IMG/VR virus record: IMGVR_UViG_3300035199_000184
Location: 1 to 64,000 of that record
Length of the DNA: 64,000 bases
DNA from: a virus
Reading direction: 5' to 3' (one strand)
Shown: piece after piece, positions 1 to 51,878 of the stretch
Layout: every line of letters begins with the position of its first letter
How positions within the stretch are numbered: the stretch's first letter is position 1
The notes under the pieces: model-generated
What the model was told of the DNA's origin: nothing
What the model saw: the letters and a program-made list of their open reading frames with translations, nothing else
The model's database searches: none
Position numbers and translations under genes: made by a program

Positions 1-15
1 TTAAGGAGATTACAC
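1..15 (+). promoter_or_regulatory. Partial leader repeat (ribosome-binding end)
   Basis: The sequence TTAAGGAGATTACAC directly precedes the first start codon. It matches the 3' end of the leader repeated in front of at least seven more genes to the right. The hairpin half lies outside the window. Confidence 0.75.
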
Positions 16-366
16 ATGGACCGTAAACGATTTGACGAACTGGTCAGCGAGTATGGCACGTGCTTTACCGATGCCGATGAGGCCAAAGACGGTGTATCCA
101 ATTACCTTGTCGATGTTTGCGACAAGGATGGCAACCGCGAAAACCGTGACGGGTCGTACGGCAGCTTTGATACCGAGCGTGAGGCTAATGCCGCCGCCCA
201 AGAAGCCGCCAACGAAACTGGATGCGATGCGGTTGTGGCTGAGCGTATCTGGCCGTTGGTTGCCGAGGGCTACATCGAAGAGGGCTACAATGGCGACTGG
301 GTAATCGATCACTACGGGATGGAAACCGGCGAGTTATGCTTTTATCCGCCGACAGTCACTAGCTAA
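16..366 (+). CDS. Small acidic phage protein, unknown function
   Basis: 116 residues, rich in Asp and Glu, with no signal peptide or membrane segment. I recognise no family. The start is set by AGGAG placed seven bases upstream, inside the repeated leader. It is the first complete gene of a same-strand array of small genes that each carry their own leader, so it is probably an early or host-modifying protein by position only. Confidence 0.75.
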   Translation: MDRKRFDELVSEYGTCFTDADEAKDGVSNYLVDVCDKDGNRENRDGSYGSFDTEREANAAAQEAANETGCDAVVAERIWPLVAEGYIEEGYNGDWVIDHYGMETGELCFYPPTVTS

Positions 367-443
367 CGATTAACCCTCCGCTCTGCTGAAGAGCAGATCG
401 GGGATGTTAACCGTTTTCACTACAACACTTTAGGAGATCACAC
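364..443 (+). repeat. Hairpin leader module 1
   Basis: After the stop codon comes CGATTAACC, then a hairpin (TCTGCT 382-387 with AGCAGA 392-397, extended by CCG 378-380 with CGG 399-401). Next is GTTAACCGTTTTCACTAC and TTTAGGAGATCACAC before the ATG at 444. There is no T-run after the stem, so it does not look like a terminator. Its outer arms match module 8 while the inner stem differs. Confidence 0.85.
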
Positions 444-677
444 ATGACTACGTACACGCTGTCCAGTAGTGCTTGGTGTTCGGCTCCGGGGATGATTCCC
501 TGGGCGATTGCCAAGTACCGGGAAGACACCGAATCCGGTGACATCAGTCAGGCACTCGTTGCCCTTGATATCATCAAGTGCTGGGAAATGCCTGATCGGG
601 TTGCCAAGGATTTGGCAGTCGGTCGCATCGAGTACCGCATCGAGGGCGACAAGGTCGTATTTGAGGTGGAAGCATGA
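444..677 (+). CDS. Small phage protein, unknown function
   Basis: 77 residues without a recognised domain. The start follows leader module 1 with AGGAG at ideal spacing. The stop overlaps the next start (ATGATG around 674-679), so this gene and the next are probably translationally coupled. No motif points to a function. Confidence 0.7.
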   Translation: MTTYTLSSSAWCSAPGMIPWAIAKYREDTESGDISQALVALDIIKCWEMPDRVAKDLAVGRIEYRIEGDKVVFEVEA

Positions 678-865
678 TGCATCCCGAACAAATCGATCAC
701 GTCGAGTACCCAAAACGGCTCGTCCGCATGGCGTCATCGACACTGCATCGGATCATATCCGACTGCAAAGCCGCTATCCAGGCATGGCCCGATGGTCAAA
801 AGGCAGGGTATTATGCTGACGAGATTAGCTACTGCTGCATGGAATTGAACAAGCGGAAACCGTAA
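674..865 (+). CDS. Small phage protein, unknown function
   Basis: 63 residues. It begins inside the stop of the preceding gene by a four-base overlap and has no leader hairpin of its own, so it relies on coupling. A start three bases later (677) is equally possible. Two Cys sit together near the C-terminus (YCCME), but there is no full metal-binding motif. Function unknown. Confidence 0.65.
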   Translation: MMHPEQIDHVEYPKRLVRMASSTLHRIISDCKAAIQAWPDGQKAGYYADEISYCCMELNKRKP

Positions 866-942
866 ACGATTAACCCTGGTTACACTCAGCGAGTGTGACC
901 AATTGTTAACCGTTTTCACTACACTACTTTAGGAGATTACAC
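866..942 (+). repeat. Hairpin leader module 2
   Basis: ACGATTAACC, then the stem GGTTACACTC (878-887) with GAGTGTGACC (891-900), ten pairs with one G-U and a 3-base loop AGC. It continues with TTGTTAACCGTTTTCACTAC and TTTAGGAGATTACAC. Confidence 0.88.
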
Positions 943-1278
943 ATGGCTACGTTTGTTGATCAGGACGGACGCAATAAGGTACACACAACCGTCCGCAATG
1001 AGGGTGCTGATACCATCGTTAGGTATCACGATACCGACATCGTCCGGTTCAACCATGACTATGTCTGGCTGAATACCGGCGGGTTTAATACCGCAACAAC
1101 CAAACGTCGAATAAATCAGGCGGCTGAGAAGTACGACCTGGGATTCTGGGTGTACCAGAAGGACCATGAATGGTTCATCCAGGAGGAATCCTACGGCGAG
1201 ACCATCTGGTTCAACGAAGAGATCAAAATGCATCGGCCCAGTGTCCTTGATGAATTCGGTCTGGTGCAGAACCCGTAA
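943..1278 (+). CDS. Conserved small phage protein, unknown function
   Basis: 111 residues. The segment LNTGGFNTATTKRRIN near residues 45-60 and the aromatic block YDLGFWVYQK resemble a small protein widespread in phages and plasmids that has no assigned function (recognised from memory). The start is fixed by leader module 2. No catalytic motif is visible. Confidence 0.75.
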   Translation: MATFVDQDGRNKVHTTVRNEGADTIVRYHDTDIVRFNHDYVWLNTGGFNTATTKRRINQAAEKYDLGFWVYQKDHEWFIQEESYGETIWFNEEIKMHRPSVLDEFGLVQNP

Positions 1279-1353
1279 CGATTCACAACGGTACTCACCT
1301 GCGGGTGGGTATCATTGTTAACCGTTTCACTACTTTACTTTAGGAGATTGCAC
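1279..1353 (+). repeat. Hairpin leader module 3
   Basis: CGATTCAC follows the stop. The hairpin is GGTACTCACC (1290-1299) with GGTGGGTATC (1304-1313), ten pairs including two G-U, loop TGCG. It ends with the conserved GTTAACCGTTTCACTAC and TTTAGGAGATTGCAC. Confidence 0.88.
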
Positions 1354-1689
1354 ATGTCGAATTTTGACTACAGTCTGGTCCGGGCCATTTGCACCGTCGA
1401 TGGCGACGAAGACCTGGAAACCGAAACTGTGACCCGTCAGGTTCGCAGCATTGTAGACGCCGAACGCATGCTCCGTGAGTTCGGTGATTCCCACTTCACC
1501 ACTGAGGTGTGGATCGATTTTGAGGTGCTGTGCGAAGACAACGAATGGCACCCGTGCATCGATCTCGATTCTATCGAGGTCAAGTGGGATCGTCACAACT
1601 TCGCCACTCCCCACCAGCGGCGAGCGATGGAAGGACGCACCATTGACCAACTGGTCAAGTGCGTCGATGGCGAATGGACTTTATTCTAA
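1354..1689 (+). CDS. Small acidic phage protein, unknown function
   Basis: 111 residues, acidic, no domain recognised. An upstream in-frame ATG at 1315 lies within the leader repeat and would translate the repeat itself. The ATG at 1354 has AGGAG seven bases upstream and is preferred. Function unknown; context is the small-gene array. Confidence 0.72.
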   Translation: MSNFDYSLVRAICTVDGDEDLETETVTRQVRSIVDAERMLREFGDSHFTTEVWIDFEVLCEDNEWHPCIDLDSIEVKWDRHNFATPHQRRAMEGRTIDQLVKCVDGEWTLF

Positions 1690-1793
1690 CGGTTCACCCC
1701 GGTTACAGTCGCTGATCGATGATCGTACCATCGGGAGTAACTGACTGTGACCGCTTGTTAACCGTTATTTCACTACTACTTAGGAGATTGCAC
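1690..1793 (+). repeat. Hairpin leader module 4 (long form)
   Basis: Outer stem GGTTACAGTC (1701-1710) with GACTGTGACC (1743-1752). The loop is 32 bases and holds a second small hairpin (CGATG with CATCG). It then continues GTTAACCGTTATTTCACTAC and TTAGGAGATTGCAC. It is the only module with a nested hairpin. Confidence 0.85.
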
Positions 1794-2036
1794 ATGTACC
1801 ATCACACAGCGTTCGGTAGTTACAAGATGGAACCGACTTCGTGGAAACCGGAATTCTTCGTCGATGGCTTGTGGAGCGGCAACGCCCTGCGGTTCGCCAC
1901 CAAAGAAGAGGCAGAGAAAAGCGGGCGAGAACTGCTGAGTCGTTGGTTTGTACCCAGCGACAGTCGGGCCGCTGAAAGTTCTGATCCCGTTAACTACAAG
2001 TTCACCAACGGCGAGAACGAGCGACTGAACGACTAA
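1794..2036 (+). CDS. Conserved small phage/plasmid protein
   Basis: 80 residues. It contains the pattern SGNALRFATKEEAEKSGREL, then SRWF and SSDPVNY. This resembles a small uncharacterised family I recall from alphaproteobacterial phages and plasmids, in which the conserved core is an ATKEEA helix followed by DPVN. No enzymatic motif. The start is set by leader module 4. Confidence 0.75.
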   Translation: MYHHTAFGSYKMEPTSWKPEFFVDGLWSGNALRFATKEEAEKSGRELLSRWFVPSDSRAAESSDPVNYKFTNGENERLND

Positions 2037-2106
2037 CACAGGTCGCCCTCAGCGTGAGGGCTACCCAATGTTAACCGTTTCACTACTTTACTTTAGGAGA
2101 TTGCAC
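2037..2106 (+). repeat. Hairpin leader module 5
   Basis: Stem GGTCGCCCTCA (2041-2051) with TGAGGGCTACC (2055-2065), one mismatch, loop GCG. It is followed by the conserved GTTAACCGTTTCACTAC and TTTAGGAGATTGCAC. Confidence 0.88.
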
Positions 2107-2397
2107 ATGGGAAACTTCGATTCTGAGCATAAGTTCTCGACTGAGGCTGAGGCCCAAGCGTTCATGTTAGGCTTTCACGTTGCTGCCAGCAATGGCATCT
2201 TCGTCAATCGGCCCAACGACTCAGCACACATTCAGGTCGAATTTCATGACACTGACGAGTGGACGGAAGAGGAGTCTATCGCCCACTGGGATGACGAACT
2301 GGCTATCCATATCACCGCCAGCAATCCTGACCGCCTGTCGAAACCGAAAGACCCAGCCATTGTCTCTCATTTCCACCGTAGGGGCACGATCCGCTGA
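2107..2397 (+). CDS. Small phage protein, unknown function
   Basis: 96 residues, acidic and His-containing, no domain recognised. The start at 2107 follows AGGAGATTGCAC. An in-frame ATG at 2068 falls in the leader and is rejected. Part of the leader-separated array. Confidence 0.7.
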   Translation: MGNFDSEHKFSTEAEAQAFMLGFHVAASNGIFVNRPNDSAHIQVEFHDTDEWTEEESIAHWDDELAIHITASNPDRLSKPKDPAIVSHFHRRGTIR

Positions 2398-2474
2398 CGA
2401 TCAACAGCCCTGCCCAACAGCGTGTTGGGTAGGCCTGTTAACCGTTTCACTACCTTTACTTTAGGAGATTGAGG
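2398..2474 (+). repeat. Hairpin leader module 6
   Basis: Stem TGCCCAACA (2411-2419) with TGTTGGGTA (2423-2431), loop GCG, extended by CC with GG. Conserved GTTAACCGTTTCACTACC and TTTAGGAGATTGAGG precede the ATG at 2475. Confidence 0.87.
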
Positions 2475-2639
2475 ATGCGTATACCCCACAGAATTGAGGG
2501 AACCCAAGAGTTCGCCATTTCGGCGGACGAGTTCTATGCGGCGTATAACTACCTGACCGAAAAGGGCGTCGATGAGGACATAGCCGAGAGCTTGTCAGAA
2601 AAATACTTGCTAATCGAACTGCAAGCCCTGGGCATGTGA
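2475..2639 (+). CDS. Very small phage protein (54 aa)
   Basis: A 54-residue reading frame from the ATG at 2475 to TGA at 2637-2639, starting MRIPHRIEGTQEF and ending LQALGM. AGGAG is in the expected place at the end of leader module 6, and a new leader begins directly after the stop. That placement supports it as a real gene despite its size. Function unknown. Confidence 0.68.
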   Translation: MRIPHRIEGTQEFAISADEFYAAYNYLTEKGVDEDIAESLSEKYLLIELQALGM

Positions 2640-2717
2640 ACGATTCACACTCCGCTCCCGCACGTTGCGGGATCGGGGATGTTAACCGTTTCACTACTTT
2701 ACTTTAGGAGATTGCAT
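2640..2717 (+). repeat. Hairpin leader module 7
   Basis: Inner stem TCCCGCA (2656-2662) with TGCGGGA (2666-2672), loop CGT, and outer stem CCG (2652-2654) with CGG (2674-2676). The outer arms are the same as in module 1 but the inner stem sequence is different on both sides. This is compensatory change that supports an RNA structure under selection. Confidence 0.88.
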
Positions 2718-2879
2718 ATGCTCTATGGTGCTTACATCGAGGGGATGAAAACCCCCTTCGCCACCACTGAGGCGTACAGTGTCGTTGAGGCAGCCAACAA
2801 GCTCGATAGAGTTATTTGGGCCTGCACCGATGCCACTGATCACGTCGAGATTCGACGTGTTAAGGAGGGGGCAGCATGA
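2718..2879 (+). CDS. Very small phage protein (53 aa)
   Basis: 53 residues, beginning MLYGAYIEGMKTPF. Start after AGGAGATTGCAT. Its stop overlaps the next gene by four bases (ATGA at 2876). The layout in the helix-rich centre (TTEAYSVVEAANKLDRV) resembles small phage proteins of unknown role. Confidence 0.68.
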   Translation: MLYGAYIEGMKTPFATTEAYSVVEAANKLDRVIWACTDATDHVEIRRVKEGAA

Positions 2880-3016
2880 AAGCCTACGTAGTTCGCTACC
2901 GAAACCGCTTCGGCGAGGTCAGAGAGTACGGACTTGCAGCCTCTTGCGTGCAACATTGCAAGCAATGGGTGTCAACTCTCGACGGGTGTACCTATCTGTC
3001 GGCCAGACTGATATAG
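2876..3016 (+). CDS. Very small phage protein (46 aa)
   Basis: 46 residues from the ATG at 2876, overlapping the previous stop, with AAGGAGG ten bases upstream. It begins MKAYVVRYRNRFGEVREYG and contains three Cys. There is no leader module between this gene and its partner, which suggests a coupled pair. Function unknown. Confidence 0.65.
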   Translation: MKAYVVRYRNRFGEVREYGLAASCVQHCKQWVSTLDGCTYLSARLI

Positions 3017-3083
3017 CCCCGATCACGCCCCCCACGGGGGGCACACTCGGTTCTATTCACTACCTTTACTTAGGGAGATCATC
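3017..3083 (+). repeat. Hairpin leader module 8 (GC-stem type)
   Basis: Hairpin GCCCCC with GGGGGC within 3027-3042 around CACG, followed by CACACTCGGTT, then ATTCACTACC and TTAGGGAGATCATC. The hairpin and its flank are almost identical to the next module, while the GTTAACCG part is lost. Confidence 0.8.
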
Positions 3084-3335
3084 ATGCCACACACATCTGA
3101 TCCTGCGTGCGTCAAGGCAAGCGTAGACCGGTTTCGTGCGATCCTTGAGAACTATCTCAAGGTGACGGGTGAGGACAGCAGCGTGCTGCAAGACTCACCT
3201 GAGCAGCCGGTCGCTGACCTGATCGCGGACCTTCGTCACTTCTGTGACGCATGGGACTTGGACTACCTCGATTGCGAAGATCGGGGTTCAGGTCACTACA
3301 ACTCTGAGCGGACGTGGTCGTCCAATCAGCGGTAG
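3084..3335 (+). CDS. Small acidic phage protein, unknown function
   Basis: 83 residues, with predicted helices (FRAILENYLKV, PVADLIADLRHF) and an acidic C-terminal half. No known motif. GGGAG upstream supports the start at 3084. Confidence 0.68.
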   Translation: MPHTSDPACVKASVDRFRAILENYLKVTGEDSSVLQDSPEQPVADLIADLRHFCDAWDLDYLDCEDRGSGHYNSERTWSSNQR

Positions 3336-3403
3336 ACCCGACCCTGCCCCCCACGGGGGGCACACTCGGCTTTATCAATGTTAACCCAAAATGGAGATGA
3401 ACA
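3336..3403 (+). repeat. Hairpin leader module 9 (GC-stem type)
   Basis: The same 16-base GC hairpin as module 8 (3346-3361), followed by CACACTCGGC and then ATGTTAACCC. The ribosome-binding part is different (ATGGAGATGAACA). Confidence 0.8.
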
Positions 3404-3631
3404 ATGGCAAAGGTACTTCCGTATCAATTCACATGTGTCGGTTGCGGTGAGCATGTGTATTGTGCCAACAAGGAGTTGAACAACCACAAGTGCGATCCTG
3501 TTAAGGAGGCACGCCGCAATGCTGGTATGCACGCCCACGATGATTACCGAGACTACAAGCCGACTGTCGGTCAGCGTATCGGTGCTGGGTTTGCAATGCT
3601 TGAAGATGACGAAACTCGTTACAGTCTTTGA
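3404..3631 (+). CDS. Small zinc-finger-like phage protein
   Basis: 75 residues. The N-terminal part has Cys-x2-Cys (CVGC), Cys (VYC) and His-x-Cys (NNHKC), enough for one zinc site around residues 11-31. The rest is polar. Phage proteins of this kind often bind host nucleic acid or RNA polymerase, but no specific family is recognised. GGAG precedes the start. Confidence 0.68.
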   Translation: MAKVLPYQFTCVGCGEHVYCANKELNNHKCDPVKEARRNAGMHAHDDYRDYKPTVGQRIGAGFAMLEDDETRYSL

Positions 3632-3643
3632 GAAAGGGGTATC

Positions 3644-3850
3644 ATGACTGATCATGAACCACTGTTGCGTTTCCCACACTTACGCAAGTTCGCCCGCAAG
3701 GGTGGGGCTTGGTGCTTTCGCTTCGAGGGCCGTGGATACGGTCCATACGATACGAAGGATGAGTGCTGGGAGGATTTCCGAGGCATGACGAAGTCCGCTA
3801 GGCGGGATCGTCAAGGCTATTCACCCACTATCGAAAGGGGGAAACAATAG
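3644..3850 (+). CDS. Small basic phage protein, unknown function
   Basis: 68 residues, net basic (KFARKGG, KSARRDRQG). Aromatic and Gly-rich middle (GAWCFRFEGRGYGPYDT) looks like a small beta-hairpin fold. It follows the zinc-finger gene after 12 bases without a hairpin leader, with GAAAGGGG as the likely ribosome-binding site. Confidence 0.65.
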   Translation: MTDHEPLLRFPHLRKFARKGGAWCFRFEGRGYGPYDTKDECWEDFRGMTKSARRDRQGYSPTIERGKQ

Positions 3851-3875
3851 ACCTAACCGAGTTCGTTTGCCCAGT

Positions 3876-3936
3876 CTGAGCTTGTGGCTCAGCCAACCCG
3901 TCCGGGTTTGTTCCCCCGGACGGGCTACTCAGCCAC
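3876..3936 (+). ncRNA. Strong hairpin element, possible structured RNA
   Basis: CCCGTCCGGG (3897-3906) pairs perfectly with CCCGGACGGG (3915-3924). TGTGGCT just upstream pairs with AGCCACA just downstream to extend it. No reading frame uses this stretch and no T-run follows, so it is not a standard terminator. It begins the 440-base non-coding block between 3851 and 4290. Confidence 0.4.
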
Positions 3937-3962
3937 ATACTTATGTGCTGAAGATTCACTAT

Positions 3963-4166
3963 GCCTGGGTGGTGTAATGGCAACACACCGTTTACCTGTT
4001 GTTGCCTGATGAGAGTTCGGTAGACCCGTACTCTCTGATGGCTTTGCTTTGCTTATTAGCGGTCTAACTAGCCGCGATGTAAGACCCGTTGAAGGATAGT
4101 TACCTTCAACGTTGGGAGGCCGACAGGTATTTGGCGGAGTACAGGGTTCGATTCCCTCCCTGGGCA
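3963..4166 (+). tRNA. Interrupted tRNA-like sequence
   Basis: The 5' part has an acceptor strand GCCTGGG (3963-3969), a D-arm GTGT/ACAC with loop AATGGCA (3972-3986), and half an anticodon stem CCGTT (3988-3992). The 3' part has GGCGG (4133-4137), a T-arm with the diagnostic TTCGATT loop (4147-4153) and CCTGGGC A (4159-4166). The halves are about 140 bases apart. The acceptor pairs 7/7 with two G-U. The anticodon cannot be read, CCA is not encoded and T-stem pair 49-65 is C-C. It may carry an intron or be a tRNA-derived remnant. Confidence 0.45.
3994..4128 (+). other. Structured insert within the tRNA-like sequence
   Basis: The ends of the insert pair: ACCTGTTG (3994-4001) with CGACAGGT (4121-4128), then GCCT (4004-4007) with AGGC (4117-4120). 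Inside are hairpins 4011-4035 (GAGAGT/ACTCTC), 4059-4075 (GCGG/CCGC) and 4088-4110 (GTTGAAGG/CCTTCAAC). It is shorter than known self-splicing group I introns and I cannot identify their conserved core, so the class is open. An alternative stem, GGCAACA (3979-3985) with TGTTGCC (4000-4006), would compete with the tRNA fold. Confidence 0.4.
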
Positions 4167-4262
4167 GCATACATTGTAGGCCGAAAGGCCGAACAACGAG
4201 GCGTCATATGTCCACGCCTACAACCCGAACGGTTCGGGGGAGAATGTATGGGGCAAGTTATC
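4167..4262 (+). other. Non-coding stretch with three hairpins
   Basis: Hairpins GGCC-GAAA-GGCC (4179-4190), AGGCGT/ACGCCT (4199-4219) and CCCGAA/TTCGGG (4224-4238). The only long frames crossing it also cross the tRNA-like sequence and look spurious. It may be the tail of one RNA that includes the tRNA-like part. Confidence 0.4.
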
Positions 4263-4290
4263 GCGGCGAATGCCGCAGAAAGAGGTGAGC
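4263..4290 (+). promoter_or_regulatory. Second-type leader hairpin with RBS, copy A
   Basis: GCGGC (4263-4267), loop GAAT, GCCGC (4272-4276), then AGAAAGAGG directly before the ATG at 4291. The same hairpin plus AGAAAG recurs before the next gene at 4423-4445. Confidence 0.65.
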
Positions 4291-4470
4291 ATGAGTGATT
4301 CAGCACCGACGTTGGTCGCGCCATCAAACTGCGAGGCGTGTTACGTCGAACTCGACGGGAGGATTTACTACCTCGACAACTCTACCGGAGAGGTGATCGT
4401 GGATAGCTGGGAACGAGTAGCAGCGGCGAATGCCGCAGAAAGGAGTTACCAATGCACGGTAATTCATTGA
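4291..4470 (+). CDS. Small acidic phage protein (59 aa)
   Basis: 59 residues from the ATG at 4291. The centre, YVELDGRIYYLDNSTGEVIV, looks like two beta-strands. The 3' end carries the second copy of the GCGGC-GAAT-GCCGC hairpin as codons for AANAAE, and the frame overlaps the next gene by 19 bases. Function unknown. Confidence 0.6.
   Translation: MSDSAPTLVAPSNCEACYVELDGRIYYLDNSTGEVIVDSWERVAAANAAERSYQCTVIH
4423..4451 (+). promoter_or_regulatory. Second-type leader hairpin with RBS, copy B
   Basis: GCGGC (4423-4427), GAAT, GCCGC (4432-4436), then AGAAAGGAG before the ATG at 4452. It lies inside the coding region of the upstream gene, so the leader serves as both coding and regulatory sequence. 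Confidence 0.65.
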
Positions 4471-4679
4471 TTCCGACTGCTTCCGAGCATGATCGGTACT
4501 GGGGGTATCCGCCTGAGGCACCCTCAGAGTACCAGGAGTCTTATGACTACTTGGTAGATCACCTGGACATCGAGAGTGATCGTGCCGAGCTCATTGCCGG
4601 TGACTACACCCGTTACGATGTCGAGATGATGGTTGCTGGTGAGCTCGACGCTCTTATCAAGCGTGAGTACACCGACTGA
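4452..4679 (+). CDS. Small acidic phage protein, unknown function
   Basis: 75 residues, rich in Asp, Glu and Tyr (YQESYDYLVDHLDIESDRAEL). Start after AAAGGAG. No domain recognised. It overlaps the preceding gene by 19 bases and is followed by another hairpin leader. Confidence 0.68.
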   Translation: MHGNSLIPTASEHDRYWGYPPEAPSEYQESYDYLVDHLDIESDRAELIAGDYTRYDVEMMVAGELDALIKREYTD

Positions 4680-4756
4680 CGACCAGCACTTCGCCCACTC
4701 GTCGTGAGTGGTCGAGGATGTTAGCCGTTTGTTTCATTTACACAAGGAGATTGAGT
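4680..4756 (+). repeat. Hairpin leader module 10 (diverged)
   Basis: Inner stem CCACTC (4695-4700) with GAGTGG (4706-4711), outer stem CTTCG (4689-4693) with CGAGG (4713-4717). It is followed by ATGTTAGCCGTTTG and AAGGAGATTGAGT. The two-part stem layout matches modules 1 and 7. Confidence 0.8.
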
Positions 4757-5209
4757 ATGCATGTATCCGAAAGTGCGATGATTGATGCGTTCAAGCGTGA
4801 CCGCGACAAGGTTGTGGACATGCTGAGGCAAGTGCTTCCAGGTTGCGGAAAATACAATCCGCCACTGCTGAAGCGTTTCGTCGTCGAACCACTCAAGCAT
4901 GTGGATGAGTGCTTCATCGAGATCGAAGAGCATGGTCTGACCCTGCAAATCGATGAGATGGATATCAGCACCATTGCCGGCAAAAAGTACCATCCATGCT
5001 GGACGGTGCTTGAGACTCGCTGTACCCCCGGCGGTCACTGGGAACCTGACGACTACGATCTGTACGAGTTGTCGTCTCATCGCAGTTACCCCGAGGCGAT
5101 TGCCAAGGTACTACTGGTCATTGCCGAGCGTGAGATTGATGGCGTAATGCAATCATACGCCGATGGTAAGCACGCTGAAGAGGTCGAGAGTTGGCCTGAC
5201 GACAAGTAA
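4757..5209 (+). CDS. Phage protein, unknown function (150 aa)
   Basis: 150 residues, the largest protein of the array. Helical N-terminus (FKRDRDKVVDMLRQVLP), an acidic middle and a helical C-terminus (AIAKVLLVIAEREIDGVMQ). No catalytic motif is seen. The ATG at 4718 is in the leader and is rejected in favour of 4757, which follows AAGGAG. Confidence 0.7.
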   Translation: MHVSESAMIDAFKRDRDKVVDMLRQVLPGCGKYNPPLLKRFVVEPLKHVDECFIEIEEHGLTLQIDEMDISTIAGKKYHPCWTVLETRCTPGGHWEPDDYDLYELSSHRSYPEAIAKVLLVIAEREIDGVMQSYADGKHAEEVESWPDDK

Positions 5210-5312
5210 CGATCCACTGAGGATACCCCAAATCTGGGGTATCCGATTGTCGACCGTTTGATACAATTGAGATTCTGAGCCGTTTTGTTTCTGTTTTGAG
5301 AGGAGTGATTCT
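5210..5312 (+). repeat. Hairpin leader module 11 (diverged)
   Basis: A perfect ten-pair stem GGATACCCCA (5221-5230) with TGGGGTATCC (5235-5244), loop AATC. The downstream part is AT-rich with GACCGTTTG and GAGAGGAG but lacks the GTTAACCG consensus. Confidence 0.78.
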
Positions 5313-5519
5313 ATGAGTGAGTCCCAAAGGGAAGTGATGATGTTTGCTGTGCGTGCAGCAATGGGCGAGCTTAGTGCGTCGGTGTGGGGATACGGTATGC
5401 CCCGCAATACCACTAAGCGGACCTTCCGTGACCTGTTTGAGGCGGCATCCACTGCCGGTCTCGACGTTGAAGAGTACCGTGAAGACTACAATCAGTTCGA
5501 CCTTAGCAAGGGAGCGTGA
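5313..5519 (+). CDS. Small phage protein, unknown function
   Basis: 68 residues, mainly helical (REVMMFAVRAAMGEL, TFRDLFEAASTAGLDVEEY). GAGAGGAG precedes the start. It is followed two bases after its stop by another small gene, so the last four genes form a short operon without leader hairpins between them. Confidence 0.67.
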   Translation: MSESQREVMMFAVRAAMGELSASVWGYGMPRNTTKRTFRDLFEAASTAGLDVEEYREDYNQFDLSKGA

Positions 5520-5521
5520 GC

Positions 5522-5683
5522 ATGAAAGAACCTAAAGTGCATGGTCTTGAGTACTTGACGATGGCACGCCTTAACGGGCGAGCAGTTGTCATGATCGGGG
5601 TTGCTAAGCATTTCGCCGTCGTCCGATTCGTGGGCGAGACTAAGCGCTTCAGCGTCCTAGCAAACCTATTGGAGAATTTCTAA
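5522..5683 (+). CDS. Very small phage protein (53 aa)
   Basis: 53 residues from the ATG at 5522 (preceded by GGGAG) to TAA at 5681-5683. The stop overlaps the next start as TAATG. Alternating hydrophobic segments (RAVVMIGVAKHFAVVRFVG) suggest a small beta fold. Function unknown. Confidence 0.62.
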   Translation: MKEPKVHGLEYLTMARLNGRAVVMIGVAKHFAVVRFVGETKRFSVLANLLENF

Positions 5684-5880
5684 TGGGTGCTGGTTTGATG
5701 TACTCAGGCTTTACTTACTACCTTTTCGGTTTCCTGTCCCCGGTCTACTGGGGATGGGAGGCCGAAACCCTTATTGCAACTACCATGCTGGGAGTTGTAA
5801 TGCATCTAATCGAGAGGAGACAAAAGAATGAGATGCTCTATCTGCAAGAAGCCCTTGGTGTCGAAGCACGTCAACGCTGA
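5683..5880 (+). CDS. Small membrane protein
   Basis: 65 residues with two hydrophobic segments, about residues 5-22 (LMYSGFTYYLFGFLSPVYW) and 27-42 (TLIATTMLGVVMHLI), and a charged C-terminus. It is probably an inner-membrane peptide with both ends on the same side. It overlaps both neighbours. A role in superinfection exclusion or host modification is possible but not shown. Confidence 0.65.
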   Translation: MGAGLMYSGFTYYLFGFLSPVYWGWEAETLIATTMLGVVMHLIERRQKNEMLYLQEALGVEARQR

Positions 5881-5959
5881 TGTGATGCACGCCAAGTGCT
5901 TACACAAGAAGATGTCTGCCGTGCGTGCACGGGTGACCAAGTTCAGAAACAAGGAGTGA
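5828..5959 (+). CDS. Very small zinc-binding peptide (43 aa)
   Basis: 43 residues from the ATG at 5828, overlapping the membrane-protein gene by 53 bases in another frame. Cys-x2-Cys at residues 3-6 (CSIC) and His-x2-Cys near residue 20 (HAKC) could bind one zinc. GAGAGGAG precedes it. It is the last gene before the terminator. Confidence 0.55.
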   Translation: MRCSICKKPLVSKHVNADVMHAKCLHKKMSAVRARVTKFRNKE

Positions 5960-8141: not shown

Positions 8142-9659
8142 TTACACTTTCAGTACGTCAGCCACAGCATCGCTCTCAACGCTCAAATTCGTTATGTGGT
8201 GGACTTTGTTGCTGACTGCGTTCAATGAGTCACGGTAGCCGTTCTCGCCTCGGTAGCCGTAGCCATGATCCTTCTGGCTGAGCACCAGCGTGGTCATCTT
8301 GACCTCTTTGGCAGCCTTCCAGGTATTGAACTCGGCCTCAACTTCGGTGGGCACCTTGATGTAGGCGTCGGTGATCAAGATAATGTCGGTCTTGCCGGCA
8401 GGGCACCCGAGGGAATCCCATCTAGCCGGTAGTTCCTTCAGGGGCACGTCGCAGGTAGTGCCACCGCCGTAGAAGTGGTCCAACCAGTCAAGCAGGTCGT
8501 CGGGCTTGTTTGCATCGGGCGGGATGGCAAGGTACGTACCCTCACGACCGCCGCTGAACCCGACTAAGCACACGTAACGCTTGGTGCTCTTGGCTATCCA
8601 ATACAACGCCAGGGCCAAGGCCTTAGCGTTTGCTATCGGGTCGCCGTACATGCTGCCAGACTCATCGCACACAACTACGATTGGCCCCTTGCCCTCCTCT
8701 TCGTATCCAATGTGCTCACGGGCAAAGGCCTGGGATTCGCTAATACGACGCAAGCACTCCAGTTCCAGCAGGTCATCCTCACCCAGGAACGCGATCTCTT
8801 GCGGCAGAACCTGGGAGATGTCTCCCGTGCGGGTCACCCCCACGACGTCCTCGCACCCATCGGGTGTCTTGGTACGCTGCTGGGATGCGGCAAGGTTCTG
8901 GTATCGACCGGCGAGCCGGCAGATTTCGGACAATTGCTTGCTGTTCTTGATCTTCTTGTAGATACGCTCAACCTCTTTGATGCCGAGCCGGGAAGTGTCG
9001 CCACTGCCCATGCCCCCGAGCGTACGCTGGGCATCTTTAAGGTCTTGAATGTCCTCTTTAGCGTTGTCCAGGGCCTTTTTAGCCTCTTGGCCGAAGCCTC
9101 CCTCAGGCCCAGGTTCCCCCGGCTCTTCGCCGTGCTTATCTTGGATGGCAGCCCACTGCTCGCTGATCCGCACGGTCGCCAGTGACGACGAATACTCATC
9201 CAGGGCGGTATCATTCCGCAATTGCTGGAACTCCTCGGTCTCCATCAGATCACGCATGTACTGCTCACGCTTGGCGTCGTGCGGGTTCTCAGCGAACTCG
9301 GTATTGAGCCCGAACAGAGACTCGAAGAAGTCAGCGGTCGCAAGCTCGGACTGACGACGTCGTTCCTTGTCCTCATCGGTCTTGAGGGACTGGCACCCGT
9401 ACATTTCCTGTAGTACCGGCGTGTCGTCGAGAATCTCGATGCCCCGATTCTTGGACCACAGGTCGTGCCTCAGTACGGTGTCTGAGTACACAACAGGGGT
9501 CTCGCCGTCGACCGTGGGGCCGAATTCGAGGTCATCGGACTTGGTGTCCTGAGCCTCGACCTTGCCGAGGAACCCCAGGTCAGACTTGCCCAGGGGGTTG
9601 AGTGACCGATCTAGCTGCGAGGCTAGGCCAGTCAGTTTTTCAGTTAGGTTCTCGCTCAT
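8142..9659 (-). CDS. VWA-domain protein (ViaA/CoxE-like partner of MoxR ATPase)
   Basis: 505 residues. A helical, charged N-terminal region (1-310) is followed by a von Willebrand A domain with a complete MIDAS: Asp-x-Ser-x-Ser at 332-336 (DESGS), Thr in GGTTCD at about 400, and Asp in ILITDAY. VWA proteins of this type work with MoxR ATPases in protein or metallo-complex remodelling, and a MoxR gene lies just upstream. A terminator-like hairpin lies between them, so VWA expression may be tuned separately. Confidence 0.82.
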   Translation of the reverse strand: MSENLTEKLTGLASQLDRSLNPLGKSDLGFLGKVEAQDTKSDDLEFGPTVDGETPVVYSDTVLRHDLWSKNRGIEILDDTPVLQEMYGCQSLKTDEDKERRRQSELATADFFESLFGLNTEFAENPHDAKREQYMRDLMETEEFQQLRNDTALDEYSSSLATVRISEQWAAIQDKHGEEPGEPGPEGGFGQEAKKALDNAKEDIQDLKDAQRTLGGMGSGDTSRLGIKEVERIYKKIKNSKQLSEICRLAGRYQNLAASQQRTKTPDGCEDVVGVTRTGDISQVLPQEIAFLGEDDLLELECLRRISESQAFAREHIGYEEEGKGPIVVVCDESGSMYGDPIANAKALALALYWIAKSTKRYVCLVGFSGGREGTYLAIPPDANKPDDLLDWLDHFYGGGTTCDVPLKELPARWDSLGCPAGKTDIILITDAYIKVPTEVEAEFNTWKAAKEVKMTTLVLSQKDHGYGYRGENGYRDSLNAVSNKVHHITNLSVESDAVADVLKV

Positions 9660-9860: not shown

Positions 9861-10985
9861 TTAGAATACAAATTCGAGGCTCTCGGCCAGGATGGTCTTG
9901 ATCCTGCACATCTCGGACTCGATGTTCTCCGAGATGCGAGAGGCCTTGCTGGTCTGCTTCAGCTTCCCGACCTGCTTGTACACCTTCTTGAGGCGTACCC
10001 CGGTGTCAGTCAGGGACTTCACGTTAGTCATGTCGGCCTCCTCCACGATGCTCTCGGCCTCCATCTTGAGGGTATTCAGCTTGAGAGCCTCGGGGTTAGC
10101 GATCTTGGTGACGATGTCCCTGGTCACATTGTGCTGGTCCGGGTCATTCCACATGGTGTGCTCCAGAACGCTCAGGTGCTCGGGCTCTACTGTCTTCGAG
10201 CCGGCCAGCCAAGCAGTGGCGTTGATGGCGGCAGTGGACTGGCGGATACGCCGGCAGCCCGTCATGACACCATTGCGGCGGAGCTCTTTCACGATAGCGT
10301 GATAAGAGTGCTCACACTCGGAGCTCGGCTTGAGTGCCTGAGCCTCGGCGGACGCCTTGTCGATCTCATCCCCACTGATCTTGAATCCGAGATCGGGGGT
10401 GAGGTCTTCCGGGGACGCCCACATCAAGCGGTGAAGTCCAGCGGACGTCGCAACCGGCTTAACGTGCTTGCGGATCAACCAGCGGTCAGCAAAGGCGTCG
10501 AGCCCCTGATCCGCCTTGGGGAATTCGTTAGACGTACCGATCATCGTCTTGACCGGGGTCTGACGAATCTCGTTCCCGTCCTCGAACGTGCCCTCATTGG
10601 TGATAGTCAAAAGCGAATTGAGTATGGCCGAGGAGCCCTTGAAGACTTCGTTGATGACCACAATCTCTGCCTCGGGCAGCTTGTTCGCGGTCAGGCGACG
10701 GTACTCGCCTTCTTTGTAGCCACGTAGGTCCAGGATACCGAACAGTTCATCAGGCATCGAGTACTTGGTGAGGGTACGCTTGAAGATTTTGGCGTCGATG
10801 ACGTCAGCCCATAGCTCCGCTAGGAGTGTCTTGGCTGTACCGGGAGCTCCCAGCATAAGGAAGTTGTCGCCGATGATCGCTGCGGTCAGCAGCAGGTCAA
10901 CTTCGTCCTCACGCTCGATGAGAGCGACCTTGAACGCTTCGGCTGCCTGAGAGAACTTGTCGAACGCTGTCATTTTCTTGCTCAT
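9861..10985 (-). CDS. MoxR/RavA-type AAA+ ATPase
   Basis: 374 residues. Walker A GAPGTAKT at 46-53, Walker B position VVINEVFKG at 109-117 (Asn in place of the usual Asp before Glu), sensor 1 TSNEFP at 151-156 and the DAFADRWLIR segment typical of MoxR/RavA ATPases. Such ATPases remodel protein complexes together with VWA proteins, one of which is encoded next. The frame opens upstream to 11153, but the ATG at 10985 follows GGAGA and starts where homology begins. The Walker B Asn should be checked for its effect on ATP hydrolysis. Confidence 0.85.
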   Translation of the reverse strand: MSKKMTAFDKFSQAAEAFKVALIEREDEVDLLLTAAIIGDNFLMLGAPGTAKTLLAELWADVIDAKIFKRTLTKYSMPDELFGILDLRGYKEGEYRRLTANKLPEAEIVVINEVFKGSSAILNSLLTITNEGTFEDGNEIRQTPVKTMIGTSNEFPKADQGLDAFADRWLIRKHVKPVATSAGLHRLMWASPEDLTPDLGFKISGDEIDKASAEAQALKPSSECEHSYHAIVKELRRNGVMTGCRRIRQSTAAINATAWLAGSKTVEPEHLSVLEHTMWNDPDQHNVTRDIVTKIANPEALKLNTLKMEAESIVEEADMTNVKSLTDTGVRLKKVYKQVGKLKQTSKASRISENIESEMCRIKTILAESLEFVF

Positions 10986-11010
10986 ATTGGTCTCCGAATG
11001 AGTAAGTGGG

Positions 11011-11253
11011 TTACTTGGAATACATGGTCTTGAGTGCTTCGACGACCAGGGACGAGCCGATGATCGCACAGAACACGAACGCTTCGGCTTTCTCCCTGTC
11101 ACTGTCGATGAATTTCTTGGCGACGTCCTGCACGTTGCCGTTATCGTACTCACTGAATGCGTCGCCCATGTTCATTGCCAGTCCTAGTGCAGCATGGGGT
11201 CCGATCTTCTCGATCAAATCACTTGCCAGATGCGTCGGGCTCAGATTTTCCAT
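11011..11253 (-). CDS. Small helical protein, MoxR-cluster companion
   Basis: 80 residues, predicted all-helical, with a hydrophobic C-terminal helix (AFVFCAIIGSSLVVEALKTM). No family known. It overlaps the end of the upstream DUF6744-like gene by 35 bases and sits 25 bases before the MoxR gene. This suggests that the three genes are expressed together. Confidence 0.65.
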   Translation of the reverse strand: MENLSPTHLASDLIEKIGPHAALGLAMNMGDAFSEYDNGNVQDVAKKFIDSDREKAEAFVFCAIIGSSLVVEALKTMYSK

Positions 11254-12175
11254 TTTTCTTTTCCTTTGCTTCGGTCAGGGTTGTCAGTTGACGCTGGAAC
11301 CTGCGGTTGATTTCGGTCGCCCGCATACGAAAGTCGACACGGCAGGAGTCCAGGTAGCTGTCGTAGGCCTCTAGCTTGAGAACCACGGCCTCAACTTCGC
11401 TGACCTTCTTGGCAACTGTGCCTTTGCGGGTCAAAGAGCCCTCCTCGGGGTCCATGTTGAAGGCCTGTGTAGCCTTCTCCAGGTCCGACAGGAGTTGGTC
11501 CATGCCGATTCGGAGCACGTTACTCAGAGCTTGCTTGCCCCTCTCGGTGCCCACTCGGATGGGGAACCGTGACAGAGCACAGGGGTCGCCAGTGACGTCA
11601 GTCATCCAACGCTCCAGTTTGTCGGCAAAGGCGTGGAACTCTGACGGGCAGAAGTAGGCAACGCCCTTGTTCTTATTGATCGGCCACAGGTCCGCATTGT
11701 CCCTGCACAACTTCTTGACCATCCTGGTGATGTCACCGGAGTTACGTCGGGTCTGCTCTTCGGCCATGTACCGCTCGATGTCGATGGCGAGTCTTTCCTG
11801 CCCTAAGGTCACTGGGGTAACGGTCCCGGTCTTGACGTCCAGTTCGACTACCGCCTCAAAGACGTGATTGATCATAGCGTCGGTCTTGCTCTCGTAGGTG
11901 AACTGGTGGCGGACCAAGGTGCCGTCCCTGGATACCCGCTCGACGATCTTGTCCAGACCCTTCACCATCCTGTTGGTGGCACGGGTGAACGCACTCTTGT
12001 GCTGAAGGTCTTGGATCATGTCGGCATCCAGGCCGGCGGCAGTTGCTGCGTCCCGCAGTAGCGAAACCTTTACGATCTTACTGGGAATGTCCCAGGTTAG
12101 GATATCGCCCGCGAGCTCTTTGTCGTCCACCTTCGGGGTGGACTTCGGGTTGTGTGAAGTTGTGAGTGTGGTCAT
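11219..12175 (-). CDS. DUF6744-like phage protein, MoxR-cluster companion
   Basis: 318 residues. N-terminal alpha/beta part, a central conserved-looking block (LWPINKNKGVAYFCPSEF near residue 190) and a long C-terminal coiled coil ending Lys-rich. It resembles phage proteins I recall as DUF6744, found beside MoxR and VWA genes, but this is from memory and unverified. An ATG at 12208 is possible; 12175 is preferred because GGAGAC lies just upstream. Its start overlaps the recombinase gene by about 98 bases. Confidence 0.55.
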   Translation of the reverse strand: MTTLTTSHNPKSTPKVDDKELAGDILTWDIPSKIVKVSLLRDAATAAGLDADMIQDLQHKSAFTRATNRMVKGLDKIVERVSRDGTLVRHQFTYESKTDAMINHVFEAVVELDVKTGTVTPVTLGQERLAIDIERYMAEEQTRRNSGDITRMVKKLCRDNADLWPINKNKGVAYFCPSEFHAFADKLERWMTDVTGDPCALSRFPIRVGTERGKQALSNVLRIGMDQLLSDLEKATQAFNMDPEEGSLTRKGTVAKKVSEVEAVVLKLEAYDSYLDSCRVDFRMRATEINRRFQRQLTTLTEAKEKKNGKSEPDASGK

Positions 12176-12827
12176 GTGTGGTCTCCATTGCGAATATGTC
12201 TTGTTCATGGTTAGTCTCGATCAGGTGAGCATATCTGTTCGTGGTAAGGATTGTTCTGTGCCCGACTGCTCGGGCTACTTCAACTAGTGTCTTACCAGCG
12301 TATAGGCAGTTGCTCACATACGAATGTCTCCCGCTGTGTAGCGTCGTTTGTCTTCCCCGGTCCTCTCCGAGGCACTGTATCAGTGATTTCCATCGTTGAC
12401 TGAGGGTGCTCTCCTTAAGTCGACCGCCGACTTTGGCACCAAGTTTGGCTGCATGTGATACGCAACATACGAGAGGTTGGTTCGAATCTTTATCAGAAAA
12501 GTAAGAACTTTTTCTGAACTCCATCCAGGCAGCTAAATCGTCCAGCGTTCCCCGGTCCCAGTACAGCGGTACGTAGCGACCGTGTGCCTCACCCCGAGAC
12601 GCTTTGGTAGCCTCAGGGCGTACCCGGATTACTGGTCGTGCACCTGTTAGCAGCACGTCACGAATCTCCAAGAGGCTAATCTCTTTGCGTCGGAGCCCGC
12701 AGCATGCCGCTAGGCGGAAGAGGGTAAGGTTGAGCCTGCCGGCTGGGTGTCGAGACTTAGACCGCAGCATGGTCACTACGGTGCGTATCTCGTCAGGTTG
12801 CAGGATTTCAGATGGATCGAAACTCAC
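12078..12827 (-). CDS. Tyrosine recombinase, catalytic domain only
   Basis: 249 residues. All catalytic positions are present: Arg46 (CGLRRKE), Lys75, His164-x-x-Arg167 (HSGR), His190 (VGHR) and Tyr199 (TTNRYAH). Full phage integrases are usually 300-400 residues with an N-terminal core-binding domain, which is lacking here. No repressor or attachment site is visible, so a role in genome resolution or DNA inversion is as likely as lysogeny. The last 30 residues are encoded in the overlap with the next gene. Confidence 0.82.
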   Translation of the reverse strand: MSFDPSEILQPDEIRTVVTMLRSKSRHPAGRLNLTLFRLAACCGLRRKEISLLEIRDVLLTGARPVIRVRPEATKASRGEAHGRYVPLYWDRGTLDDLAAWMEFRKSSYFSDKDSNQPLVCCVSHAAKLGAKVGGRLKESTLSQRWKSLIQCLGEDRGRQTTLHSGRHSYVSNCLYAGKTLVEVARAVGHRTILTTNRYAHLIETNHEQDIFAMETTHDHTHNFTQPEVHPEGGRQRARGRYPNLGHSQ

Positions 12828-16716: not shown

Positions 16717-17408
16717 GCGTTCACCTCTTTCAGTTTCATTGCTCTATGGGTTGCTGTGCGGTCCTGGCTGCACATATCAGCCCAAACTTCGTCATTGATC
16801 TCGTCTCGGGACTTCGGTTGCCACTCCTCGTTCTGGTAGAAGAGCGTATTCTCCATCTCCCGCTTCCGGGCTCGTACCCGCTTTGGTAGCTGCCCCTTGT
16901 GGTACAACTGTGAGGCGCGCTGTTTGCTGATTCCGAGAAGCTTGGACCAGCCTGTCAGAGTTCTAGTGTCACCTCCGACGTCAACCACGGTTCCCGCACA
17001 CTTGCCGCTGAAAGTTACGTAGTTTTGTGGACCCAGAAACTTTCTCTTGTCACGGGGGCCGATCCATAGAGTCTCGTCACCGATGTCCCGCAATAGGTCG
17101 CGGAAATTGACCCACCGTGCTACGACACGACGGAGCTTGATGTACTTTCGATGACACTGGTAGAGTCGACTGCTGACGGGTATGGGGGATTGCCGGAGGG
17201 TGCACTGGGCGGTGCAGTAGAGCACTGCACCTTTTTTTACGGAGTGCTTAACTGCCTGGACCGTCGCACCACAATCGCACCGGATTGTGATTCGAGGATT
17301 CGTGCTGCACTGACCCTCGGGATCTTCCGCTACTACAATGTTGCCGTAGCGGCGACCTTCGAGATTGCAGAACCTAGATGATTTGCTAGGCTGTCGCTCG
17401 TTGCTCAT
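16713..17408 (-). CDS. Zinc-ribbon DNA-binding protein related to phage HNH/AP2 homing proteins
   Basis: 231 residues. NLEGRRYGNIVVAEDPEGQ followed by RCDCGATVQAV and YCTAQC is the zinc-ribbon module found at the N-terminus of many phage HNH or AP2 homing proteins. Near residue 165, LTGWSKLLGISKQRASQLYH looks like a helix-turn-helix. No HNH core follows, so it may be a regulator derived from a homing protein. Its stop overlaps the Sak4 start by four bases. Confidence 0.6.
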   Translation of the reverse strand: MSNERQPSKSSRFCNLEGRRYGNIVVAEDPEGQCSTNPRITIRCDCGATVQAVKHSVKKGAVLYCTAQCTLRQSPIPVSSRLYQCHRKYIKLRRVVARWVNFRDLLRDIGDETLWIGPRDKRKFLGPQNYVTFSGKCAGTVVDVGGDTRTLTGWSKLLGISKQRASQLYHKGQLPKRVRARKREMENTLFYQNEEWQPKSRDEINDEVWADMCSQDRTATHRAMKLKEVNA

Positions 17409-36059: not shown

Positions 36060-36075
36060 TGGTTACTACCTTGTT

Positions 36076-37671
36076 TTATAATGCGTTTGCTTCATCCCAT
36101 GCTATCTTCTTTAGTAGCAATTCATCGAGCGTGTGCCTTACACCGTCTATGATGTAAAGGTGCTCTCCAGCGTCTCCTTCCCCTGCTTTAACTTCTAGGG
36201 CAACTCCGTAAACAGCGTTCTGATCTTTTAGCCAATCATGGACGATCTTCTTTTGATCTGAGATACGCTCGGGGCCATTACCTTCTCCGTCTTCATGAGC
36301 CTTCGCAAACCTTGCTCTCGTGTCCTCGGACTGCTTGTACTTCTCGATGAATGCAGCGGCGTGGTTGTGCTCGTAGGTGTTCCCTCGACGATACCCCTCG
36401 ATGGTCTCTTTCACGTTCCCCAGGATTCCGCCTTTCTTTTTCCTGAAGTCTGACTTGTCTTTGATTCCGTATTCGTCATTCAGGAACTGCTTGGTTTCGT
36501 CACTCAGGTCAACCCAGCCCTTACCTTTCACGGCAGTGCCGATGTTTCTCCGAATGTCTTCATAGTATCCAGCGTCAGTCTCGTCGTTCATGAGAGTAGA
36601 TGCCGCATACTTCGCTCTCGCTGCGGCCATCCTGTCCCGTGGTTTCTTGCTTTCTTCTAAGTCGCGGACCTTCTTGTCATCGTCGGTTTTCCGCTCGCTA
36701 TGTGAGTACTGGGTCCCGTACCTGCGTCTAGCCAAGTCCTCCGCCTCTTGGCGGGTGTACAGAGGCGTAGCGAGGTCGGGATCAGCATCCCCATCACTGT
36801 CGACGCCCGGTTTAGTCATCGCCCTTAGTTCCTTCACATATTCCTCATGTGCGTCCCTATTGGCCTTCGTTGCAGCGGACTTTGCGGTCGCGTCCTGCAC
36901 TCGCATTTTGGCGTGCTCTTCTTGAGTCTTCGCTGTGGCTCTCCAGTGTCCGCCAGATCCGTCGTCGTTCTGGACGTACTCGTACTGATCCCCTGGTCGG
37001 CCATATGGGCTTTCTGGAACCTGGATTCCTTTTCCGCGTAGGTTCTCAGCAGAGGGGCTTTCCCCGGACAGACTGAACTGCTGTGACGGCGTCATTGTTG
37101 CCTTCTGGAGAGCGGCCAGCTTTTCGTGCTCAGCCGCAAGCAGCTTGAGTTTAGTTTCCGGCGGCACCCCTGAAGCGTTATTAAGGATCTTGATCATCGA
37201 GTCCTTGATCTCCTGGGCTTGGTCCCGAGACGAACCAAGAACGCCACCGTCCCCTGTCTCATACGCTGATGAGTCTATGGCAGTCGCCTGGGTCCGCATG
37301 TTTTCAATGCCCGTCAGGTCGTCCGCTCTCTTGAACCCCTCCTGCTGAATGGTAGCGTCGTGCTCGAATCCTTTGCCTTGGATGTCCAGTCTGTTCTGGT
37401 GGGCTTGGTTCGCGGCGGCAATGTTAGCGTCACGTCCCATCTGGGCTTGGTTCCCCCGGAACTGCTGGTCCCGTTCCTGTGCGAACCGCTCTGCCATGAG
37501 CTTCTGCTGGAACTGTTTTTGCTGCGTCTGGTCTCGACGGGCAGATGCATCTATCTGCTGCTGACTCTGATTAAGCTGGATAGCCTTTGGAATCTGCTCA
37601 GCGTAGCCGGCCTTCTGTTCCAGGTTCGCAATTACCGACGCCTGGGGATAATGCTTAAAGACGAATGGCAT
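36076..37671 (-). CDS. Internal virion protein, coiled-coil type
   Basis: 531 residues, Gln/Ala/Lys-rich and strongly helical (QLNQSQQQIDASARRDQTQQ and following). No catalytic motif. Position between the giant polyvalent protein and a Gly/Arg-rich protein corresponds to the internal core genes of podophages, so it is probably ejected or forms a core inside the capsid. Inference from position and composition. Confidence 0.6.
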   Translation of the reverse strand: MPFVFKHYPQASVIANLEQKAGYAEQIPKAIQLNQSQQQIDASARRDQTQQKQFQQKLMAERFAQERDQQFRGNQAQMGRDANIAAANQAHQNRLDIQGKGFEHDATIQQEGFKRADDLTGIENMRTQATAIDSSAYETGDGGVLGSSRDQAQEIKDSMIKILNNASGVPPETKLKLLAAEHEKLAALQKATMTPSQQFSLSGESPSAENLRGKGIQVPESPYGRPGDQYEYVQNDDGSGGHWRATAKTQEEHAKMRVQDATAKSAATKANRDAHEEYVKELRAMTKPGVDSDGDADPDLATPLYTRQEAEDLARRRYGTQYSHSERKTDDDKKVRDLEESKKPRDRMAAARAKYAASTLMNDETDAGYYEDIRRNIGTAVKGKGWVDLSDETKQFLNDEYGIKDKSDFRKKKGGILGNVKETIEGYRRGNTYEHNHAAAFIEKYKQSEDTRARFAKAHEDGEGNGPERISDQKKIVHDWLKDQNAVYGVALEVKAGEGDAGEHLYIIDGVRHTLDELLLKKIAWDEANAL

Positions 37672-43115: not shown

Positions 43116-43327
43116 TACTTATCTCCTGTCTGGAACATCCCTGTGGATTCAGGCACTTCCTTGTAGATTACATATTTGTGTTGATGACCAACCGTGTCCA
43201 TGAAGTAATGGAGGTCGGAGGTCGTGGTTACGGTAATTGATTCCCCTAGGCTATTGATCGTTTTGCAACCATCATAATGGATTGCTGCGTCTATTAGTGT
43301 CGGATATTCCAGTCTCAATTCGGGCAT
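43115..43327 (-). CDS. Small structural-module protein, unknown function
   Basis: 70 residues, beta-rich (HYDGCKTINSLGESITVT). It sits between the adaptor-like protein and a structural protein with one-base overlaps on both sides, so it is probably co-translated virion or assembly protein. No family recognised. Confidence 0.58.
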   Translation of the reverse strand: MPELRLEYPTLIDAAIHYDGCKTINSLGESITVTTTSDLHYFMDTVGHQHKYVIYKEVPESTGMFQTGDK

Positions 43328-51838: not shown

Positions 51839-51878
51839 AGTTTAAACTCCTCCTAAACCACGGAGTTAAAAGTAAATG

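Follow-up and report, generated by a model that had tools for sequence, protein, structure and literature searches.

Nine intergenic gaps at 364-5312 on the plus strand of the IMG/VR virus record IMGVR_UViG_3300035199_000184 share a leader of ~80 nt, in which an imperfect hairpin is followed by a spacer, the Shine-Dalgarno (SD) sequence AGGAG and an ATG start codon. The stretch analysed, hereafter the window, comprises the first 64,000 bases of this 67,527-base linear record and belongs to a tailed phage from an uncultured lineage. Both the array and the conserved structure of its hairpin are well supported: stem length is constant while stem sequence varies from one leader to the next. The genes behind the leaders are small and mutually unrelated, no two leader-bearing genes of the array being convincingly related. 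An earlier note on the same DNA had described a repeated leader plan in front of small genes, and this plan proved real, as nine full leaders were recovered by a covariance model (R1).

R1 was built with seven window leaders among its sequences, which it scores at 76-92 bits. It also finds the two leaders that were left out of the build, L5 and L12, at 46 bits (1688-1796) and 24 bits (5208-5277), respectively. All nine leaders lie on the plus strand, and the rest of the 67.5 kb record gave no further convincing leader match. At the level of plain sequence, GTTAACCGTTTCACTAC is present in four exact copies (0.08 by chance) and CTTTAGGAGATTGCACATG occurs seven times at ≤3 mismatches (0.00 by chance). 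Together with two leaders in a sister phage, described below, these make 11 canonical leaders. The distance from hairpin to SD is 16-18 nt in 10 of the 11, with a mostly conserved spacer, and that from SD to ATG is 7 nt, again in 10 of the 11.

The hairpin starts at the preceding gene's stop codon, except in L6, whose arm starts six bases ahead of it. On folding, AACG-A-TTAAC pairs with GTTAA-C-CGTT to form the outer half of a single rod. The two TTAACC copies that the earlier note saw flanking the hairpin are therefore present but are not separate signals, since TTAAC pairs with GTTAA in the outer hairpin. This outer stem has 10 positions, the fifth of which is an A-C mismatch, replaced by G-C in L5 only. 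Next comes a small internal loop, the 3' side of which is usually one base longer, then an inner stem of 10-11 pairs with a C-U or U-G a few pairs below the apical loop in most copies. The apical loop itself has 3-5 bases in all window copies but L5. The rod spans 23-25 columns in 10 of the 11 canonical leaders, L5 being the rod plus an apical extension, and the hairpin measures 50-52 nt (79 in L5).

All 11 canonical leaders fold better than their shuffles, with z values of -3.1 to -6.1, and no less than 99.9% of 1500 background windows (99th percentile 22, maximum 26.5) fall below their helix scores of 26.5-38. The earlier claim that the hairpin sequence differs by gene while the structure is kept is borne out by covariation. 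In an alignment of 12 leaders 87.6% of the cells are paired, compared to 67.0% in shuffles, and 15 of 19 pairs have changed on both sides (45 such cells vs 17.4 in shuffles, a count reached in 0 of 500 shuffles); sliding the arms by one to three columns lowers pairing to 30-46%. As this alignment was fitted to the structure, the weight is carried by an arm-exchange test that is independent of it: inner arms form 10.3 Watson-Crick pairs with their own partners and 6.3 with the arms of other leaders, and 0 of 20,000 permutations were as good. For the outer arms the evidence is thinner and points in the same direction, L11 (GTTAGCC/GACCAGC) and L12 (GTCGACC/GATCCAC) each fitting their own partner best. 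With the fixed A-C at pair 5 set aside, G-U pairs outnumber A-C mismatches (~20 vs ~10), and C-U outnumbers G-A by 17 to 1 on the plus strand, an asymmetry that moderately favours folding of the plus strand. In a distant relative (G007, see below), the attC-like sites, which are expected to fold as DNA, have few G-U pairs.

Along the array, L2 (364..443, hairpin 365-415) stands before the gene at 444-677, with an R1 score of 86.1 bits and a folding z of -4.5. L3 (863..942, hairpin 865-914; 85.3 bits, z -6.1) precedes the gene at 943-1278, which belongs to the Kyano_Gp96/phrog_554 family (Pfam PF23790, E 7e-11), and L4 (1276..1353, hairpin 1277-1326; 80.8 bits, z -4.7) that at 1354-1689. L5 (1687..1793, before 1794-2036) has a hairpin at 1688-1766 with an apical extension of ~30 nt, scoring 46.4 bits with a z of -5.0. 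In L6 (2028..2106, before 2107-2397; hairpin 2028-2079, 89.6 bits, z -4.3) the 5' arm overlaps the stop codon (2034-2036) and the last codons of the preceding gene. L7 (2395..2474, hairpin 2396-2446; 80.2 bits, z -5.7) and L8 (2637..2717, hairpin 2639-2690; 91.9 bits, z -4.9) serve the genes at 2475-2639 and 2718-2879, respectively. L11 (4677..4756, hairpin 4678-4729) stands before 4757-5209 and gives 76.7 bits and a z of -3.1. Finally, L12 (5207..5312, before 5313-5519) combines a hairpin at 5208-5258 that carries the GTCGAC/GATCCAC arm changes with a longer spacer of 43 nt, and reaches 23.6 bits (z -4.4). The 3' part of one more leader, with its SD, is present at 1..15 (+) before the gene at 16-366, where TTAAGGAGATTACAC abuts the ATG and R1 positions 64-81 match with 16.8 bits; the contig start removes its 5' part.

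Two further gaps hold a different, GC-rich hairpin and lack the CGATTAACC arm. The divergent L9 (3014..3083, +, before 3084-3335) consists of the hairpin GCCCCC-CACG-GGGGGC and the spacer TTCACTACCTTTACTTAGGGAG, with an R1 score of 19.1 bits (E 0.008) and a z of -4.7. The divergent L10 (3333..3403, +, before 3404-3631; z -4.1) has a hairpin of the same type, keeps GTTAACC and is 78% identical over 59 nt to 2998-3056. The "at least eleven" regions of the earlier note are reached only if these two are included; nine follow the full plan. Genes with a start codon overlapping the preceding stop (674 and 2876) have no hairpin of their own, so that each hairpin serves a mono- or dicistronic unit.

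Other hairpin leaders were seen in these phages as well. A second, shorter type, GCGGC-GAAT-GCCGC (GCGGC-N4-GCCGC), lies immediately ahead of the SD at 4263..4290 (+), at 4423-4451 and at L040:1926-1957 of the sister phage. Next to the capsid gene stands a hairpin leader with the conserved flank TTTACTTT..AACTCCGTGGTTT..AGGAGGAGTT, at 51836-51974 (-) in the window, 53706-53797 (-) in the sister phage G001 and 17065-17149 (-) in G002; the hairpin sequence of G002 is quite different, and an array-like grammar is thus found outside the array.

No nucleotide relative of the window was found in phage and plasmid collections, and relatives were recruited via the capsid protein. The best of them is the sister phage G001 (64.9 kb; a 64,892-base record, loci L040-L043), with 83% identity in the capsid protein and ~21-68%, below the capsid value, in most other proteins compared. 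It has two canonical leaders. One of these, L040:924-998, is 83% identical over 75 nt to L2 (364-438), while the genes downstream show no similarity. Conversely, of the orthologues at 943-1278 and L040:612-926 (53% identity over 70 residues), only the one in the window has a hairpin leader. A block of 122 nt at the first array gene (window 231-352, L040:1-122) is 100% identical in the two phages, against ~64-83% in other matching DNA, and may be taken as a sign of recent exchange of that gene.

Such decoupling of leaders from genes, together with the lack of relatedness among array genes, means that the leaders are not the trace of one tandemly duplicated gene family; as the earlier note had supposed, the units look refilled. 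Comparison of the two phages suggests that leaders have been either copied to new genes or retained while genes were replaced. It is possible, if on balance rather unlikely, that we are dealing with a modular RNA leader that is copied before newly acquired small genes and spreads apart from the genes it serves, i.e. a plug-in 5' untranslated region whose length-defined processing hairpin and standard SD would give each gene an insulated expression unit. Phages gain and lose many small genes, each of which needs expression, and a copy-and-paste leader that keeps only pairing and length would be a natural expression insulator.

The leader is known from two phages only, the window phage and G001, and a contig end cuts the array in both. 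In 17 further relative records leader matches reached 11-16 bits only; most of these contigs are short or hold structural genes only, so absence says little. Among viral contigs, an exact 16-base motif gave four single matches in unrelated sequence, which we attribute to chance, and the arm pattern gave one real hit, the sister phage, the other matches being one repeated sequence or a plain palindrome. The same pattern returned 12 single matches in 84,980 bacterial and archaeal genomes, approximately the chance number, none above 17 bits. None of the Rfam families reached its gathering score in the window; the one hit, inside a gene (E 0.37), is at chance level.

What has been kept in these leaders is pairing, length and SD context, which are the needs of a shape-reading nuclease or of an end-protecting hairpin, and a processing or mRNA-end role is therefore favoured. 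We tentatively propose, by analogy, an intercistronic RNA leader cassette whose hairpin would most likely be an RNase III-type processing or mRNA-end signal; processing sites, one of the functions offered in the earlier note, are our best functional guess. From stop codon through rod-like hairpin and spacer to SD and ATG, the leader would allow each small gene, or each coupled pair, to be translated independently within a single co-oriented early transcript. RNase III prefers about two turns of helix. A rod of 23-25 pair positions, or ~two helical turns, with a small internal loop near its middle could be a substrate that this enzyme reads by shape and length and not by sequence. Cleavage, or the bare hairpin acting as a barrier to exonucleases, would then separate and stabilise mono- and dicistronic messages, much as in the early region of T7; here we infer the operon transcription, the cleavage, the stabilisation and the identity of the enzyme.

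In T7, RNase III cuts the early precursor at five sites, located in hairpins of ~60 nt between early genes, to give mono- and dicistronic mRNAs; a 60-nt RNA, R1.1, serves as the model substrate of the enzyme (PMC4858673). Similar to these sites, the window has an intercistronic, irregular hairpin of about two turns, which may likewise be cleaved, an internal loop after 10 pairs and mono- or dicistronic units. The T7 sites are, however, few and individual, whereas the window repeats a near-identical leader with conserved spacer and SD nine times. Some observations weigh against an RNA signal of this kind. The fixed A-C would be a G-U on the other strand and the enrichment of G-U is moderate, so that selection on single-stranded or duplex DNA is still conceivable. 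Furthermore, the arms AACGATTAAC and GTTAACCGTT are conserved beyond the needs of a pure shape signal, which points to an extra sequence-reading partner or to recent copying. The nine or so leaders of the array are natural sequence variants of a single RNA structure, on which the function of such leaders can be probed.

The main rival is translational control, to which we assign a rather low likelihood. According to this explanation, access to the SD would be set by the hairpin or by a protein bound to its recurring A-C and C-U mismatches; the conserved TTTCACTA is able to mask the SD through pairing with TAGGAGA. All genes of the array would be adjusted jointly, and the rod could be melted by a ribosome that finishes translating the upstream gene. 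The stop codon in or next to the rod base of all canonical leaders, the mismatches recurring at fixed places and the spacer conservation extending beyond the SD all agree with it. Predicted SD accessibility is 0.28, compared to 0.43 in 50 other window genes (p 0.03), but this is a small difference, and the leaders cannot be counted as independent cases. Against it, the TTTC-CTA pairing is absent in L11 and L12, and no candidate RNA-binding protein was found among the scanned proteins. An operator or promoter acting at the DNA level, in which a regulator would bind to the inverted repeat, itself overlapping a promoter, as proposed for the ESAS repeats of phage Adephagia, appears improbable. Position, orientation and repeat number of the leaders are similar to those of ESAS (PMC3203893; PMC11373665), the outer arms are conserved in sequence, and the early region of the sister phage encodes an extracytoplasmic function (ECF)-type sigma factor (L040:1943-2545). 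However, in tests confined to the sigma-70 type, no leader has a best match stronger than those of its own shuffled versions, and the tandem promoters (of sigma-70 type) suggested in the earlier note are not borne out. Moreover, the variable inner arms keep complementarity and not sequence, and a DNA-binding site needs no such pairing; nor did the window phage yield a homologue of the sister's sigma factor.

Even less credit can be given to the leaders as recombination sites, attC-like or plain repeated homology, for the swapping of small genes, despite the decoupling of leaders and genes between the two phages, the identical 122-nt block and a true attC-like array in a distant relative, which places cassette systems in the wider lineage. 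Integron attC sites were considered seriously because of that array, and the window does resemble them in that imperfect hairpins of variable sequence, adjoining stop codons, separate small genes unrelated to one another. Yet its hairpins are shorter (50-52 nt, 79 in L5, vs 89-91 nt for the sites of the relative), and each left arm pairs with its own right arm no worse than with that of a neighbour, whereas cassette arrays pair with the preceding site. The conserved part extends across the SD up to the ATG, in a region that would belong to the following cassette, and the attC-type model of the relative (R2) finds no match in the window. Nor does the window have an integron integrase: its recombinase (12078-12827) reaches 27 bits where the cut-off is 265, in a match confined to 48 residues (159-206) near the C-terminus. 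On integrase score, arm logic and model search the integron hypothesis was rejected for the window; homologous exchange between leaders may occur as a by-product. Least probable in our estimate are factor-dependent terminators or attenuators that step transcription down along the array. Stable hairpins right after stop codons would suit them, but a strong SD at fixed spacing follows every hairpin, so that the element belongs to the downstream gene. In agreement with the earlier note, no T run or intrinsic terminator was found after the stems of the leaders.

Returning to the processing or mRNA-end cassette that we favour, the earlier statement that no comparable phage array had been described was too strong, since the start-associated repeats SAS and ESAS (PMC3203893), the Microbacterium cluster EF and EG repeats (PMC7302621) and the promoter early stem-loops (PeSLs; PMC4503421) are analogous. 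The closest described arrangement is that of SAS/ESAS in cluster K mycobacteriophages (Pope 2011, PMC3203893; PMC11373665; PMC12699233), with similar motifs in Microbacterium cluster EF (PMC7302621). These are short repeats, about 10-19 copies and nearly all of them in one orientation, standing in larger intergenic gaps right before the starts of non-structural genes of different families, with an SD-containing conserved part. As in the window, an imperfect inverted repeat lies upstream of the start-associated repeat, in one orientation and before non-structural genes. In ESAS, however, the sequence of the inverted repeat is conserved and RNA pairing is unsupported (Pope 2011, PMC3203893), whereas the inner stem of the window is free in sequence and covaries. 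ESAS in Adephagia also contain SigA-like -35 and -10 boxes 17-18 bp apart (PMC11373665), unlike the window leaders, which have neither a sigma-70 match above shuffles nor the SAS consensus: the 13-bp SAS GGGATAGGAGCCC, which is located at the ribosome-binding site, gave three matches with two mismatches, vs 2.1 expected by chance, none of them in leaders. A case with clearly selected RNA structure reopens the question of what SAS/ESAS-like repeats do, which has gone unsettled for over a decade since they were described.

Microbacterium cluster EG phages and cluster O mycobacteriophages similarly carry 8-10 short inverted repeats 14-22 bp before gene starts at the genome end (PMC7302621). Theirs is a conserved 18-bp DNA sequence, in contrast to the much longer RNA-type rod of variable sequence in the window. 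The PeSLs of T4-like phages were reportedly described in Arbiol 2010 and Comeau 2014. They too are repeated intergenic stem-loop modules, thought to aid gene shuffling (PMC4503421), and the L2-like leader shared by the window and L040:924-998 at 83% identity is likewise a module standing before different genes in related phages. PeSLs are reported to combine an early promoter with a terminator-like stem-loop, whereas the window leaders have no detectable sigma-70 promoter or T-run terminator. We claim membership of the window leaders in none of these families; the general idea is known from phages and the element is new.

The distant relative G007 (IMGVR_UViG_3300035665_000023, loci L053-L056) is a 73-kb viral contig whose large terminase subunit, portal and capsid proteins are 31%, 33% and 31% identical to those of the window. 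Its record holds eight attC-like sites, 89-91 nt long and with two extrahelical bases, at 32200-35247 and 35814-36890. From the second site on, the R'' arm is complementary to the R' arm of the site before it. Among the cassette genes is one for Lar-type restriction alleviation, and the cassettes are followed by a tyrosine recombinase. This integron-like cassette array within a phage genome merits separate study. The same contig has ten direct repeats of ~42 nt, spaced 68-74 nt, at L054:2916-3599 (G007 22916-23599), which look like a regular repeat array.

Outside the array of ~twenty small plus-strand genes (16-5959), almost all long genes of the window lie on the minus strand. Recognisable among the window genes are an SU10-type adaptor (43327-44835), the major capsid protein (51925-52962), the terminase large subunit (58938-60905) and a helicase (62750-63877). 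A search of genomes with the capsid protein for a host returned nothing. Default ARAGORN finds no tRNA or tmRNA in the window, and Rfam is also negative at 3961-4168, where tRNA-like acceptor, D and T arms surround a structured insert; with introns allowed, ARAGORN calls this region tRNA-SeC(tca) with a 111-nt intron, a doubtful call. Possible iterons lie close to the right-hand end of the record, where AACTAACCGACA is repeated several times in tandem (L005:3995-4051, record 66994-67050). Lastly, 8142-9659 and 9861-11153 encode a pair made up of a vWA protein (ViaA-like) and a MoxR/RavA-like ATPase, both of which are retained at ~45% in the sister phage.

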